NCBI GenBank assembly: GCA_015099395.1
Contig: AP024096.1
Span: 5,518,001-5,582,000 of the forward strand
From: Ktedonobacteria bacterium brp13
Lineage (GTDB): Bacteria; Chloroflexota; Ktedonobacteria; Ktedonobacterales; Ktedonobacteraceae
Length of the DNA: 64,000 bases
Reading direction: 5' to 3'
Shown: one piece after another, positions 37,680 to 46,521 of the stretch
Layout: every line of letters begins with the position of its first letter
Position numbering within the stretch: the first letter of the stretch is position 1
Program-made: the position numbers and the translations under genes
The notes under the pieces: model-generated
The model's input: only the letters and a program-made list of their open reading frames with translations
Told to the model about the DNA's origin: nothing
Database searches by the model: none

Positions 37680-37772
37680 GTTTGCTCTTCACTATGATCT
37701 TCCTGTCAAGTAATTTAGAGCACATAAAAAAATCTCTTTTATTCGCAATTGAATAAAAGAGATGTAAGTGAG

Positions 37773-37845
37773 TGGACCTGAGGAGACTCGAACTCCTGAC
37801 CTCCTCCATGCCATGGAGGCGCTCTACCAGCTGCGCTACAGGCCC
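37773..37845 (-). tRNA. tRNA-Ala (anticodon GGC)
   Basis: Complete cloverleaf on the minus strand. Acceptor GGGCCTG pairs with CAGGTCC plus discriminator A. The D-arm has AGCTGGTAGAGC. The anticodon stem CCTCC/GGAGG encloses ATGGCAT (anticodon GGC). The T-arm is CAGGAGTTCGAGTCTCCTC. CCA is not encoded. Confidence 0.95.
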
Positions 37846-38052
37846 ATAGCGGTATAATAATGTAACAAACCAATTATACACGATTTAGCACAACTTTTCA
37901 AGTGTTTTTCAGCGTAAAGATGGTGATTTTTGAATCGCCACAAAAAATCGTCGGCGTAGACGATCATCTACGAAAGAAGATAGTGACGCACCATTCGCTT
38001 TTGCGGCTAGCGAAATCCCACATTTCAGAGATATGTCGAAGATACAAGAGGC

Positions 38053-38095
38053 CAGGGCCTGGAGAATAGTGAGCGACAGAATTCTCCAGGCCCTG
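38053..38095 (-). terminator. fumC terminator
   Basis: A 15-bp inverted repeat, CAGGGCCTGGAGAAT with its complement, lies 18 bp past the fumC stop. Confidence 0.8.
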
Positions 38096-38112
38096 TATGC
38101 TTACAGACAGCA

Positions 38113-39534
38113 TTAGCCACCTGCAGGTCCACCTTCCAGACCAGGCGTGGTCATACTTTCAGGATTGAGGATACGTGTCAGTTCTTCCTCGGAGAGATTC
38201 GTCTTCTCACGTGCAACCTCACGTATAGTTCGTCCAGTCTTATGTGCGAGCTTGGAAATATCGGCAGCAGCATCATAGCCGATAACAGGAGCCAGTGACG
38301 TACAGATGGCCAGGCCGCGCTCGACCATCTCAGGTCCTCTGGTCGTTGCCTTCAGACCCTTAATACACTGTTCCGTAAAGTTACGGGCAGCGGCAGCCAG
38401 CAGATTGATCGATTGCAATAGATTGTAGGCGACCACTGGCATCATCACATTGATCTCAAAGTTGCCAGCCTGACCACCGACAGTGATCGTCGTATGATTG
38501 CCAATTACTTGCGCACAGACCATACAGACAGATTCTGCAATCACTGGATTGACCTTACCAGGCATAATCGAGCTCCCCGGCTGCACAGCAGGCAGTTCAA
38601 GCTCTCCGATACCGGCGCGTGGACCCGAAGCCAGCCAGCGAATATCGTTAGCGATCTTCATCAGGCTGACTGCGATCGTATTCAGTGATCCACTGGCCTC
38701 AACCACATTATCAAGCGTACTCTGCGCCTGAAAGTGGTTGCCAGTCTCATGTACATCGACACCATTAATATTGGCAAGCCGTTCACAGACACGCGTCGCA
38801 AATAAAGGATGTGTATTGACACCAGTCCCGACAGCCGTCCCACCCAGTGCCACTTCAGAAAGCTCGCTCTGGGCATGATTGAGGCGCAAGATGCCACGCT
38901 CGATCTGGCCCGCATAGCCATCGAACTCCTGACCCAGCCGGATAGGAGTAGCATCCTGTAAATGTGTACGACCGGTCTTGATGATCGGCATAAACTCTTC
39001 AGCTCTACTCGACAGTGCCTGTTGCAGTCCCAGCAGTGCTGGCATCAGCTTCTCCTCAATCGTCACCAGAGCAGCAAGATGGATCGCGCTCGGAATAACA
39101 TCGTTGGAGGACTGACCAAAGTTGACATGATCGTTTGGATGCACCTTACGAGAACCGCGTGAGCCACCGAGCAGCTCATTCGCCCGATTCGCAATAACCT
39201 CGTTCGCATTCATATTCGTCGAAGTACCCGAACCGGTCTGAAAAATATCGAGCACAAAGTGATTATCGAGCTTGCCATCGATCACCTCCTGCGACGCCTG
39301 TACAATCGCATCGGCAATCTTCTGATCGATATTGCCCAGCCCTGCATTCACCAGTGCAGCAGACTGCTTTATCTGGCCAAGGGCACGAATAAACTCACGT
39401 GGAAAACGCAATGTACTGATCGGAAAATTCAGGGCAGCACGCTGTGTGCTTGCTCCATAATAAGCATCTACCGGAACCTGCATCTCGCCCATTGAATCGC
39501 GCTCAACACGAGTATGTTGTGTAGTTTGGGACAT
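38113..39534 (-). CDS. fumC: Fumarate hydratase class II
   Basis: Class II fumarase interconverts fumarate and malate in the TCA cycle as a homotetramer without an iron-sulfur cluster. The 473-residue sequence shows GSGTSTNMNANEVIANRA, VHPNDHVNFGQSSND, GRTHLQDATPIRLGQEF, the general GTAVGTGVNTHP, and the catalytic signature GSSIMPGKVNPVI with the mobile-loop Ser. ATG at 39534 follows GAGGAGGAG. Length is normal. It is the only gene on its strand between the tRNA and the repeat cassettes. Confidence 0.97.
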   Translation of the reverse strand: MSQTTQHTRVERDSMGEMQVPVDAYYGASTQRAALNFPISTLRFPREFIRALGQIKQSAALVNAGLGNIDQKIADAIVQASQEVIDGKLDNHFVLDIFQTGSGTSTNMNANEVIANRANELLGGSRGSRKVHPNDHVNFGQSSNDVIPSAIHLAALVTIEEKLMPALLGLQQALSSRAEEFMPIIKTGRTHLQDATPIRLGQEFDGYAGQIERGILRLNHAQSELSEVALGGTAVGTGVNTHPLFATRVCERLANINGVDVHETGNHFQAQSTLDNVVEASGSLNTIAVSLMKIANDIRWLASGPRAGIGELELPAVQPGSSIMPGKVNPVIAESVCMVCAQVIGNHTTITVGGQAGNFEINVMMPVVAYNLLQSINLLAAAARNFTEQCIKGLKATTRGPEMVERGLAICTSLAPVIGYDAAADISKLAHKTGRTIREVAREKTNLSEEELTRILNPESMTTPGLEGGPAGG

Positions 39535-39648
39535 ATCTCCTCCTCTTTGAGCATGCTACGTTTTACCGCATTATATCACCACATCTGCTATCAACTACAC
39601 TGATCCATATACCAGCCCAATACTCAGCAAAAAAACAGCGCAAAAGCC

Positions 39649-39722
39649 TTGAAAATGGAGCCTCTTTATGGTATACTTGTATGGTATTCACGAGAAGCGA
39701 GCGATTCGGCTTCTCTTTTTTT
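39649..39722 (+). ncRNA. Promoter-hairpin-terminator cassette, copy 1
   Basis: TTGAAA (39649-39654), 17-bp spacer, TATACT (39672-39677), then GAGAAGC (39692-39698) paired with GCTTCTC (39709-39715) and seven T. Predicted transcript is about 35-40 nt. Downstream GTGCCCTCCAC is shared with the other copies. The intergenic stretch 39535-39953 holds this unit and copy 2; nothing else was seen. Confidence 0.65.
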
Positions 39723-39796
39723 GTGCCCTCCACGAGATCTCCATCATCAATTTCTCATCAGTTTTCCCAATTGATCACATTTATGCCAAAAAAGCC

Positions 39797-39871
39797 TTGA
39801 ATTTTTTCGATCGATTGGGTATACTTGAATGGTGATCACGAGAAGCGCGCAAAACGGCTTCTCTTTTTTTT
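39797..39871 (+). ncRNA. Promoter-hairpin-terminator cassette, copy 2
   Basis: TTGAAT (39797-39802), 17-bp spacer, TATACT (39820-39825), GAGAAGC (39840-39846)/GCTTCTC (39857-39863), eight T. It shares about 50 bp of upstream sequence with copy 3 (CAATTTCT.ATCAGTTTTCCC through TTATGCCAAAAAAGCC). It lies 148 bp after copy 1 in tandem. Confidence 0.7.
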
Positions 39872-39953
39872 GTGTCCTCCACGCCACCCTACCCCACTCC
39901 ACGACGCGGAGAATAGTCTATATCCCCCGCGCCTTTTCTCTCCTCCCCTCTTG

Positions 39954-41273
39954 CTACGGCACTAATCTATGCAGGTCCCGTGGGAACAGTGTTGCAAGCT
40001 TGATGTTTGGGATGTCGAGCAACTGCATGAGTAGACGCTCCATACCTATAGCAAAGCCACCATGTGGGGGCATGCCATGCTCGAAGGCTGTAAGATAGTA
40101 GCGAAACGGCTCTAATGGCAGTTGTGCCTGCTCCAGAGCTGCGATATAGTCCGTATAACGATGCAGACGTTGCCCACCAGTAACCAGTTCCGTCCCTCGG
40201 AATAGCAGGTCAAACGAGTTCGAGTACTCTGGCCGCTGGGGATCTGGATGCGTATAGAAGGGTCGTTTACGCATAGGGTAGCCGGTTACGAATAAGAGGT
40301 CACTCCCAAACTCCTGCTGCGCCCACGCTCCCAGCCAGCGTTCATCCTGTGGTGAGAGGTCAGGTTCACCACGTACATCCACATTGTGCTGCGCAAAGAT
40401 CAACTCCTGAGCGTCAGCGAAATGGATCGCAGGAATCTCTGAAGGCACGTGCGGTAGTTGGACATGCAGCAGTGCCAGTTCGGTGGCATAGCATTCGCCC
40501 AGCAGCGCGAAGACGTGAGCGAGTACGTCACGTAGCAATGCCATGACCTCGGTGTGGTCTTGAATAAAGCCGAATTCAGCATCCAGACTTACATATTCGT
40601 TGAGGTGGCGCGTCGTATCATGTGGCTCAGCGCGGAAGACTGGGCCAACCTCGAAGACGCGCTCAAAGATCCCAACCATTATTTGCTTATAAAATTGTGG
40701 GCTTTGTGCCAGATAGGCTGGTCGCCCAAAGTAGTCGAGCTGGAAGACATTAGCGCCACCCTCAGTCGCTGCGGCAACTATCTTAGGCGTCTGAATCTCG
40801 GTAAAATTCTCGGACGTCAAGATGTCCCGAAAACCGGACATAATACCTCCGCTCAGACGTAGCGTAGCACGACGTACGGGATGACGATTGGCGACAGGAG
40901 CATGATCCAGCAAGGTTACCGCGTTGGCACTAAGCTTACGCTTATTAAGCGAGATCGGTGGCGTTTTACTGACAGCATTGAGCACCTCAACGGATAGATT
41001 ATGAAGCTCAACACCACCTGGTGCCTGATCCTCTACATGGACAGTACCCTCAACAACAATGATGCTCTCAACCCCGACACCCGACTCCAACAACGCCGCA
41101 ATCTCAGCATCGTTCTCTGAAACCGCCTGCAGCAATCCCCAACCATCGCGAACAAGCAGAAAAGTTATACCACCCAGACGACGAAATGAATGTAACCAGC
41201 CCGCGATATGTACACGTTTGCCATCGAGTGTCGCGCGCTCGGTCGCAACCTCTATAGTTCGTTTCCGCTCCAT
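39954..41273 (-). CDS. aspS: Archaeal-type aspartyl-tRNA synthetase (AspRS2, likely Asp/Asn tRNA)
   Basis: A class IIb aminoacyl-tRNA synthetase of 439 residues. An N-terminal OB fold binds the anticodon (VHIAGWLHSFRRLGGITFLLVRDGWG). Motif 2 is FEVGPVFRAEPHDTTRHLNEYVSLDAEFGFI and motif 3 GGFAIGMERLLMQLL. The end NIKLATLFPRDLHRLVP and SPQFYKQIMVG are typical of archaeal/eukaryal AspRS and the bacterial AspRS2 group, many of which also charge tRNA-Asn. AsnRS is the alternative; without alignment I cannot exclude it. I start at ATG 41273 (GAGAGGTGG upstream); the longer frame runs into the T-box leader. It is regulated by the T-box just upstream. Confidence 0.85.
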   Translation of the reverse strand: MERKRTIEVATERATLDGKRVHIAGWLHSFRRLGGITFLLVRDGWGLLQAVSENDAEIAALLESGVGVESIIVVEGTVHVEDQAPGGVELHNLSVEVLNAVSKTPPISLNKRKLSANAVTLLDHAPVANRHPVRRATLRLSGGIMSGFRDILTSENFTEIQTPKIVAAATEGGANVFQLDYFGRPAYLAQSPQFYKQIMVGIFERVFEVGPVFRAEPHDTTRHLNEYVSLDAEFGFIQDHTEVMALLRDVLAHVFALLGECYATELALLHVQLPHVPSEIPAIHFADAQELIFAQHNVDVRGEPDLSPQDERWLGAWAQQEFGSDLLFVTGYPMRKRPFYTHPDPQRPEYSNSFDLLFRGTELVTGGQRLHRYTDYIAALEQAQLPLEPFRYYLTAFEHGMPPHGGFAIGMERLLMQLLDIPNIKLATLFPRDLHRLVP

Positions 41274-41335
41274 TGTGCCACCTCTCTTTGATGTACAGAT
41301 GCTAAAAGATGCTACATGCAGACCCAGGCACCACA

Positions 41336-41700
41336 CAAAAAAGCCCTCATCCTCACATAAGGAGGACGAGGGCAGATTATGCCTGTCGTGGTACCACCAC
41401 CATTTATCCCTTCTTGACAAAGGGACCTCAAGCAGTCGAACACATGGTGTGCCTGATCATTTATTGTGCACGGCACAGCACATGCTAACTGACGCACCGA
41501 TAACGGAGTGCCTTCCGAAAACCACTTACTTATACTATCAATGTTATAGATGCCATTGATAGCAGTTCACTGGCTAGCTCGTAGGGGTCATTGACCAGGG
41601 CGTACCGCAATGCTCTCAGCGTTACATTGCTCTCTGTTGGCGCGCAGATCCTGCCAACCTATCCTACTCAAAGCAGTTCAATATATATCTCTTATTACTA
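41336..41700 (-). promoter_or_regulatory. T-box riboswitch leader of the AspRS gene
   Basis: T-boxes sense uncharged tRNA and control transcription. On the minus strand: stem I with the GAGTAGG element and the apical CAACAGAGAGC...GCTGAGAGC; then the T-box proper GGTGGTGGTACCACGACA (41384-41401, core TGGTACCACG); then a terminator GCCCTC.TCCTC/GAGGA.GAGGGC (41343-41373) ending in T6. A GAAC at 41565-41568 is a possible specifier region (AAC = Asn), but I cannot fix the specifier. The rest of the gap (41701-41788) shows nothing. Confidence 0.85.
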
Positions 41701-41788
41701 TACAGTATACACTTTCATTATGCAATAACACCCAGGCTTTTTAACATAAGAAAAACAGATAACATAGGGGATAAGCATTCAAGCATTG

Positions 41789-42688
41789 CTAATCTTCATC
41801 TTCGTTCAAGGTATCAAAGAGCGATAACTGTCGCTGTTTGCGCTCACCCAGGCGCTGCCGGGCCTCACGTTGCAGCTTTTGGATACTTTTGGTAGGCGTC
41901 GGCTGATCTTCCGGCATGGTACCACCGCCTCGGGCAATCAAATTGCGGATTTCTGCGCCTGTCTGCTGATGTTCCTGGTTCGCTTTTGCTTTGGTCTGGA
42001 TCGCTTTGTTGCGAATACGCTCTTCCGCTTGTGTGGAGCGAAAGAGATTCGCTGCGAGTTCTCCGCTATTCATATGGTCTAAGATCTTCTGGCTCTTCTT
42101 CAGTCCCTTGCGCGCATGGATATCACGCGCACCAAGGCCGCCGTAAAGTCCCTGATAACCGTGGTCTTGAAAGATGGCGAAATCTCTAGCGGTGATCACA
42201 CCAGCCTGGCTCGCCGTCTCTGCCAGTTGGACATTATGCAAAGAAAGTTGATCGCGTACGACCAGGCGCTTCTGGTTTTCAGTGAGTCCGGTAAGCACAT
42301 CTTCATCAGCAAGTTCCTGGCGACGCGTCTGGACCGCAAAGTAGGTCTGGCCTAAGCTAACTATGGATTTTTCAGGATCAGCGTTTTGAACCAGTAAATA
42401 ACAAGCATACCGCGAGAGATGGATATCTTCGACCTGACGACGTGCCCCCTTGCCAACTTCGATCATATCGCTCACATGGGAGAAATGATCTTCCACCGAT
42501 TGAGCACTGCTTTCACAGGCTTTTTCAGCACGGACAATCGCCCGCTTAAATTTACCAAACTCGGTATATCCTAAGAGCTTCGCTAGAGCACGCGCACTCC
42601 AAAACTCCTGCTCCTGCTCATTGACCTGCCGACTCGCCTCAAAAGGGGATGTATATGACTGGTTCTGCGGACTCCCAGTGTTCTCCAT
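41789..42688 (-). CDS. dinD: DNA-damage-inducible protein D
   Basis: DinD is a SOS-induced protein that interacts with RecA filaments in E. coli. The 299-residue sequence has the BRO-N-like N-terminus WSARALAKLLGYTEFGKFKRAIVRAEKAC, the VEDIHLSRYACYLLVQNADP motif and ARDFAIFQDHGYQGLYGGL, all typical of DinD. The C-terminus is basic and Gln-rich. ATG at 42688 follows AAGGTG. No LexA box that I can recognise lies in the upstream 100 bp. It is one of three short minus-strand genes (dinD, NADAR, DUF402). Confidence 0.92.
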   Translation of the reverse strand: MENTGSPQNQSYTSPFEASRQVNEQEQEFWSARALAKLLGYTEFGKFKRAIVRAEKACESSAQSVEDHFSHVSDMIEVGKGARRQVEDIHLSRYACYLLVQNADPEKSIVSLGQTYFAVQTRRQELADEDVLTGLTENQKRLVVRDQLSLHNVQLAETASQAGVITARDFAIFQDHGYQGLYGGLGARDIHARKGLKKSQKILDHMNSGELAANLFRSTQAEERIRNKAIQTKAKANQEHQQTGAEIRNLIARGGGTMPEDQPTPTKSIQKLQREARQRLGERKQRQLSLFDTLNEDED

Positions 42689-42872
42689 AGTTCACCTTCT
42701 TTTATGTATGTTTTGCATGATAATATTCCCTAAATATCTTTGGTCTATAGTATAACATCTCTATCTCTTTTTATACAATACAATGGAATCGCAGAACAAG
42801 GCTTTCCAGGAGACCTTCACGATCAATTTCTGATCAGTTTTCCCAATTGATGACATTTATGCCAAAAAAGCC

Positions 42873-42946
42873 TTGAATTTTTCAAATAGATTGGGTACAC
42901 TTGAATGGTGATCACGAGAAGCGTGCAAAACGACTTCTCTTTTTTT
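42873..42946 (+). ncRNA. Promoter-hairpin-terminator cassette, copy 3
   Basis: TTGAAT (42873-42878), 17-bp spacer, TACACT (42896-42901), GAGAAG (42916-42921)/CTTCTC (42934-42939), seven T. It lies antisense to flanking minus-strand genes in the 300-bp gap between dinD and the NADAR gene. The start of a further unit (CCACCACATATCTGCTACCAATTTCTCA) may follow it. Confidence 0.65.
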
Positions 42947-42988
42947 GTGCCCTCCACCACATATCTGCTACCAATTTCTCAGCCTATG

Positions 42989-43447
42989 CTAGCTTTCTTG
43001 CTCTGACGGGGGAGATATACGCAAGATTTGACGCACCTGCATCAGAATCTGTCCTAACATATTGCGCCCCTTGCCATCAGCACCACAACCCCAATAGGCA
43101 TCGGTAAGGGCGTTCTCGATGATCTCTTCGTCTCCTGTTGCCAGCAGTAGCGCACGAATATCTGCATGTGTCTCAAACTTGCGCAACACAGCCTGGCGCA
43201 TAACCTCATCTTTCACCTCTTCCCAGTCTGCACGCAACGGAAATGTCCGCAGCCGTCCAAGATCAGCAGCCTCTTTGGGTGAGCGAGCCTGCTGGATGCG
43301 TTTGGCATACGAGGTCCCGACAAATTTCTGCGCTTGAAAATAATGCTCACTGGTCGGCCACCAAACATCATCGAGAATAAAGCCATGGGCAGAAAAATTG
43401 GAAAAGCAGCCGTACGGCTCGCGTGTTTTGTAGAAACGAATAGACAT
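42989..43447 (-). CDS. NADAR family protein (YbiA-like)
   Basis: A 152-residue NADAR-domain protein. Members are N-glycosidases; some act on reactive riboflavin intermediates, others remove ADP-ribose from guanine in DNA. Seen: FYKTREPYGCFSNFSAHGF, WPTSEHYFQAQKF, and YWGCGADGKGRNMLGQILMQVR. The Trp-x-x-x-Glu His and the final W-G-x-G-x(4)-G-x-N-x-L-G are the family core. ATG at 43447 has AAGGAG 8 nt upstream; the longer frame has no such support. No DarT-like partner is adjacent, so I favour a house-cleaning role. Confidence 0.92.
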   Translation of the reverse strand: MSIRFYKTREPYGCFSNFSAHGFILDDVWWPTSEHYFQAQKFVGTSYAKRIQQARSPKEAADLGRLRTFPLRADWEEVKDEVMRQAVLRKFETHADIRALLLATGDEEIIENALTDAYWGCGADGKGRNMLGQILMQVRQILRISPPSEQES

Positions 43448-43493
43448 GCGCCGCTCCTTTTTTGCATTCCAGCATAAGCGTGTAAATAAAAGC

Positions 43494-46216: not shown

Positions 46217-46238
46217 TGGCACCCTTTTCCGCACAAAG

Positions 46239-46521
46239 TAATGTGTGCCTCGTCGATGATAGCGGTCTGCACGTCTCCTGAGCACTGGCTTAACCCTCGT
46301 AGACCTGGTTAACTCAGAAGTTATAGAGCAATGCGCTGGCATGCACGCATTGGTACGTTCTTGAACATTGCCGCTATCGTAGCCCGATAACCGTTTCCCG
46401 CCCCAAGGGGCATGCAAGGAACAGTCCTGGCTGGGACTGGTCAGGTAAGCTCGCAGAGAAGACGGGCAGAAACCACCCCATCTCTACAAGCCCGTCCCGT
46501 TTAGGGGACAGGGTTCCTGAC
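46239..46521 (-). ncRNA. Stand-alone omega-RNA without iscB, 3' of a kinase gene
   Basis: Shares with the iscB-linked region (545-947) the terminus GTCAGGAACCC (46511-46521), ACCTGACCAGTC, the TGCATGCCAGC core with a compensatory stem, GGGTTAA(G)CCAGTG, and GACGAGGCA. Internal hairpins GACGGGC/GCCCGTC and GCCCC-TT-GGGGC replace different hairpins at the first locus. No iscB reading frame follows at lower coordinates; recX ends there. The 5' end lies 24 bp past the kinase stop with no terminator between, so it could be processed from kinase mRNA. The candidate guide is 46522-46537. Confidence 0.75.

Follow-up and report, generated by a model that had tools for sequence, protein, structure and literature searches.

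Three promoter–hairpin–terminator units in the 64-kb window

The window analyzed here is a stretch of 64,000 nt from the genome (G000) of a soil bacterium, which consists of a single 8.88-Mb contig. Two short units on the plus strand, A and B, occupy the gap that separates a fumC-like gene from asnS, and a third, C, lies between a Bro-N-domain (DinD-like) gene and a NADAR-domain gene (Table 1). The three share one layout, TTGAA(A/T), 17 nt, TA(T/C)ACT, 14 nt, a GAGAAGC-type hairpin of 6–7 bp and a run of T7–8. In a scan of the window, they were the only sites combining a promoter, a hairpin and a T-run, exactly the three units that the first-pass annotation had described, with one interrupted pair in the stem of unit C.

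Table 1. Units, repeat copies and neighboring genes in the window
Feature	Position	Strand	Remarks
fumC-like class II fumarase/aspartase gene	38113–39534	−	Divergent from unit A; named from sequence alone
Unit A	39649–39722	+	−35 TTGAAA, 39649–39654; 17-nt spacer; −10 TATACT, 39672–39677; T7, 39716–39722
Unit A expected start	near 39683–39685	+	Predicted
Unit A hairpin	39692–39715	+	GAGAAGC-N10-GCTTCTC, after a 14-nt leader
142-nt direct repeat, left copy	39729–39870	+	Carries unit B; starts ~68 nt upstream of the −35
Unit B	39797–39871	+	−35 TTGAAT, 39797–39802; 17-nt spacer; −10 TATACT, 39820–39825; T8, 39864–39871
Unit B hairpin	39840–39863	+	Stem as in unit A
asnS, asparaginyl-tRNA synthetase-like gene	39954–41273	−	Convergent with A/B; named from sequence and upstream T-box
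Bro-N-domain (DinD-like) gene	41789–42688	−	Between B and C
142-nt direct repeat, right copy	42805–42946	+	Carries unit C
Unit C	42873–42946	+	−35 TTGAAT, 42873–42878; 17-nt spacer; −10 TACACT, 42896–42901; T7, 42940–42946
Unit C hairpin	42916–42939	+	One stem pair interrupted
NADAR-domain gene	42989–43465	−	Convergent with unit C

Because all of the neighboring genes are on the opposite strand, the units are not leaders of these genes. Unit B ends toward the 3′ end of asnS and unit C toward that of the NADAR-domain gene. A same-strand gene directly downstream, as expected for an attenuator, is absent at A, B, and C and is present at a few copies in relatives.

The T-box leader upstream of asnS (41359–41680, minus strand) scored 57.3 bits (E = 4e-11) against an Rfam gathering score of 93 bits, and two HEARO RNAs scored above gathering (565–776 and 46238–46521, both minus strand). 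In three relatives (L198–L200), fumC and asnS are convergent and have a tRNA-Ala gene between them. In G000 (window 37772–41273), the orientation of fumC and tRNA-Ala with respect to asnS is reversed, and A and B are located at the new junction. The fumC flanks of the relatives carry no units, and the region is rearranged there.

The units exceed chance expectation, and B and C arose by duplication

When the same scan was applied to 30 dinucleotide shuffles of the window, it returned 0.17 sites on average and never more than 2, as compared to 3 in the real sequence. The occurrence of the units is non-random. A repeat search of 39500–43100 revealed the direct repeat carrying B and C, along with short chance matches, and nothing else. 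The two copies of this 142-nt repeat are 90% identical. Since B and C both lie inside it, their likeness reflects common descent and not independent conservation; therefore, no more than two of the examples in the window are independent, and by itself the window proves little. The proposal that the spacers differ while the spacing and the hairpin are kept holds for A versus B/C, but not for B versus C, which stem from one duplication and share 13 of the 17 spacer positions.

The promoter is shared with housekeeping genes

The exact 17-bp spacing had been taken as a sign of selection. This spacing is ordinary here: it is found in nearly all recognizable tRNA promoters of the G000 genome, and thus it is no evidence by itself. 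With up to three mismatches, the promoter motif was found in 26 of 29 genomes, with about 100 matches versus 1 for the control. Among 56 further promoter sequences that were read, seven are followed by a detected terminator and one more (L172) by a terminator seen by eye, and the remaining ones are located upstream of tRNA genes, a 5S-like gene, regulators, and other genes. As the promoter is shared with other genes, the complete short unit is the distinctive feature. An initial promoter pattern with a gap of 18–22 was discarded, because it returned generic promoters only and the units need 17.

Related units in the Dictyobacter/Ktedonobacter group

A BLAST search of the 8.88-Mb genome for the motif, as the first-pass annotation had suggested, yielded no copies beyond A, B, and C, whereas a covariance model and pattern searches recovered diverged ones. 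Within the bacterial family, BLAST identified one unit each in G008 and G005. A covariance model trained on these two units together with A, B, and C detected diverged units outside the training set, with E values from 1e-8 to 1e-4, in G006, G007, G014–G018, and others. Among the 47 genomes of the class, the clear model matches all came from four genera of a single family (Dictyobacter and Ktedonobacter, plus two nearby genera), and a fifth genus (G004) gave one weak match with an AT-rich hairpin. An independent pattern search, which used the promoter grammar plus T6 and did not require a hairpin, gave matches in 17 of 29 genomes, versus none for the reversed-pattern control. Among the pattern matches listed, most contain a hairpin, and the others are nadB promoters or chance matches. 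The exact core pattern was found in genome contigs at five loci, all from Dictyobacter or Ktedonobacter, and had no match in viral contigs. The units had no BLAST match in phage or plasmid collections, and no unit matched Rfam at the gathering threshold or at E ≤ 5.

Besides A, B, and C, G000 carries subtelomeric units at positions 404, 5119, 24615, and 25888. Judged from sequence, one genome would thus carry several homologous units, each with its own predicted promoter and terminator, as is the case for families of sibling small RNAs.

For comparison, 28 units were aligned; their stems were extracted separately, the MAFFT alignment having misaligned them. The terminator-like hairpin is present in 28 of 28 units and the 17-bp spacer in 26 of 28, so that the copies keep both features as anticipated, with the count for the spacer biased upward because the search models favor 17 bp. 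The predicted RNA length is 32–43 nt (median 39), close to the 35–45 nt first estimated. The exposed leader varies by subfamily (GGUAAGUUU, GUGUUC, GUCACUUGC). What is conserved in the stem is a purine-rich 5′ arm and the pairing, not the GAGAAGC sequence as such.

Several candidates were excluded: the model matches L127/L128, which are located after coding sequence; L100, which is a tRNA promoter; and the third sub-group of the pattern (GTTAGTGTACAAAAGACAC), which is the promoter of the nadB–nadC operon. A conserved element of the GTTAGTGTACAAAAGACAC type is present at the nadB–nadC promoters of several genera (upstream regions L166–L170) and looks like an operator.

The examined units are all intergenic, and they either start directly after a same-strand gene (L108, L116, and L107) or end a short distance ahead of a convergent gene's stop (10–75 nt before the stop codon for B, C, L024/L104, L113, L115, L120, and L164). 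At L105/L108, L106/L112, and L116, a same-strand gene is found at most a few hundred nucleotides downstream. At L113, two units flank a chloramphenicol-phosphotransferase-like gene that is absent at the corresponding L114 site, a unit–gene–unit layout resembling B-[asnS, dinD-like]-C. NADAR-domain genes adjoin units in both Dictyobacter and Ktedonobacter (upstream of the unit at L113/L114/L123), but on opposite relative strands.

The hairpin covaries, and the unit is better conserved than its flanks

The secondary-structure alignment that had been proposed was made with 18 hairpins, a set of related sequences that does not include A, B, or C and in which the structure was taken from one member. 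In this alignment, 92.7% of the cells pair, and both-side changes occur in 10 of the 11 stem pairs. The double changes numbered 27, as compared to a mean of 9.0 in shuffled alignments; none of the 500 shuffles reached the real count, and slid controls gave 3–4. The outer half of the stem varies, with compensatory changes, and the inner GCC(ACA)...(UGU)GGC shows less variation. A conserved secondary structure with compensatory changes, as in sibling RNA families, is therefore present.

A direct repeat across the −10 and +1 region, which is clear in unit A, was rejected as covariation; as read by eye, its offsets are 13–16, and it is broken in L113b, L115, and L107. The purine content of the 5′ arm is 0.73 in the units versus 0.49 in 22 other hairpins. 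This feature was not counted as specific to the units, because four tRNA terminators read by eye also have it.

The identity of the unit was compared with that of the upstream 120 nt for five pairs of corresponding loci. The values for the unit and the upstream stretch, respectively, were 0.65 and 0.11 for L104/L024, 0.88 and 0.33 for L106/L112, 0.74 and 0.32 for L105/L108, 0.71 and 0.53 for L122/L126, and 0.89 and 0.74 for L113/L114, whose upstream stretch is partly coding. The identity obtained with shuffled flanks is 0.26–0.33. Over six pairs, the identity was 97% at the −35, 83% at the −10, and 61% at spacer positions 4–12; the −35 and the −10 are nearly unchanged while these spacer positions drift in five of the six pairs, the exception, at the −10, being L114/L123. 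At corresponding loci, the unit outlasts its surroundings.

The suggestion that the units form a family of tiny RNAs is supported in part: homologous units in related species keep the −35, the −10, the beginning of the leader, and a hairpin that covaries, with drift in the flanks and in much of the spacer. Other points carry less weight than first proposed: the 17-bp spacing is ordinary, the GAGAAGC sequence is not a family signature, and the promoter motif serves tRNA, 5S, and protein genes as well.

Units near contig ends

Several copies lie less than ~10 kb from contig ends, beside ResT/TelK telomere-resolvase or transposase-like genes. In particular, the GGTAAGCTTTTTTGAGAG subfamily clusters near contig ends, and the GGTAAGCTTTTTTGAGAG units of G000 are divergent from telomere-resolvase genes and lie about 105–110 nt upstream of them. 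The G000 units at 404 and 5119 represent a single palindrome, one in each arm.

The start of the G000 contig (L160, G000:C1:1-5600) is a perfect inverted repeat centered at 2799.5, as confirmed base by base as far as the contig start (5.6 kb). Both arms carry a ResT/TelK-type telomere-resolvase gene, and the assembly seems here to have read through a hairpin telomere. Telomere-resolvase genes (PF16684) are present in 9 of the 47 Ktedonobacteria genomes, many of them close to contig ends; they are located at contig ends in G000, G006, G014, G015, G016, and G017, with matches also in G005, G013, and G025. Linear replicons or terminal inverted repeats have been reported in the Ktedonobacteria group (PMC13289182, PMC6497799), and a word search of these two papers found neither "telomere" nor "resolvase".

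Discussion

We consider the chances about even that the units constitute a lineage-specific, low-copy, multi-locus family of tiny non-coding RNAs in the Dictyobacter/Ktedonobacter group. A strong housekeeping-type promoter would start an RNA with an unpaired leader of 8–13 nt (type GGUAAGUUU...), and the intrinsic terminator hairpin and U-run directly after the leader would release an RNA of ~39 nt. Selection on transcription start and termination would keep the units, with occasional copying to new intergenic sites. The comparative data support selection on making and ending such a predicted RNA. If the promoters fire and the RNA accumulates, its most likely use would be to act in trans as RNA, with only the leader and the loop as exposed bases, like other bacterial "sibling" sRNAs. 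A leader plus a terminator is about the minimum that any promoter–terminator pair gives, and therefore selection could act on transcription and not on the RNA. Counting against the tiny-RNA reading are the leader, which differs between subfamilies, and L105/L108, L116, and L106/L112, which precede same-strand genes. The stronger proposal, that these are lineage-specific autonomous regulatory RNAs of ~40 nt, each made up of a leader of some ten bases and a terminator, acting in trans, among the smallest independently transcribed in bacteria, and common to the hairpin-telomere subtelomeres and the internal loci of Ktedonobacteria, seems to us unlikely.

The units might instead be local transcription insulators that use a short terminated transcript to stop read-through or antisense transcription originating at the neighbors, with the RNA itself being idle. 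The intergenic positions, many of them shortly before a convergent stop codon or directly after a same-strand gene, would fit this function, whereas the orientation toward the neighbors is inconsistent, and the recurrence of the leader and the inner-stem sequence (GCCACA...UGUGGC) across loci and genera would be left unexplained. We regard insulation, too, as an unlikely explanation.

It is quite improbable that the units are a passive non-coding repeat, or cargo, spread with subtelomeric/resolvase segments or transposons. The copies beside resolvase or transposase-like genes near contig ends, as well as the unit–gene–unit layouts in the window and at L113, are in line with such spreading; however, it would not give compensatory stem changes or the conservation of the unit over its flanks at corresponding chromosomal loci. 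Moreover, the copy number is low, and terminal repeats or target duplications were not noticed in an unsystematic look.

A role as promoter–attenuator leaders, in which a conditional terminator regulates the downstream gene, is very improbable, even though three loci or locus pairs have a same-strand gene at most a few hundred nucleotides downstream and the nadB–nadC loci picked up by the pattern search are leaders of this type or operators. In the window and at most other loci, the unit is followed by an opposite-strand gene, the 8–13-nt leader is too short for an alternative structure, and no T-box or riboswitch matches the units.

Finally, an accidental adjacency of strong promoters and terminators, with B and C alike through duplication alone, is extremely improbable: the promoter motif and the 17-bp spacing are indeed common in the bacterial family, but the shuffled windows, the absence of reversed-pattern matches in 29 genomes, the hairpin covariation, and the conservation of the unit at corresponding loci contradict it.

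Terminator-only hairpins are easily missed by genome annotation and RNA-family searches, and hence a class of promoter–leader–terminator micro-genes could be overlooked. If expressed, the units would allow a test of the smallest independently transcribed bacterial RNA still kept by selection. They also provide concrete loci for RNA-seq in a poorly studied group, for which no small-RNA study was found in the open-access literature searched.

Comparison with known systems

The units resemble transcription attenuators and terminator leaders in that a promoter is closely followed by an intrinsic terminator. In contrast to attenuators, the window copies have no regulated same-strand gene and no room for an antiterminator, and the units face away from, or toward the ends of, opposite-strand genes. 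With the tRNA and 5S units of Ktedonobacteria they share the promoter grammar, as CTTGAYTTTT-N9-TCAGGTATACTT is likewise found ahead of tRNA genes and a 5S-like gene, and, as seen by eye in four tRNA terminators, the purine-rich 5′ arm; however, no tRNA or rRNA lies between the promoter and the terminator of the A/B/C-type units.

Sibling sRNAs are encoded in several intergenic copies per genome, each transcribed on its own and some arranged in tandem, with common promoter elements and an intrinsic terminator; they are roughly 50–150 nt in length and contain a seed region besides the terminator. On sequence grounds, these RNAs (LhrC1-5 of Listeria, the csRNAs of streptococci, OmrA/B, and Qrr) would be the nearest known kind, a likeness of general kind only. 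The units likewise occur as multiple intergenic copies per genome, some in tandem, with promoter elements and an intrinsic terminator in common, whereas their predicted RNA of ~39 nt would contain little beyond the leader and the terminator, and they belong to an unrelated sequence family and lineage.
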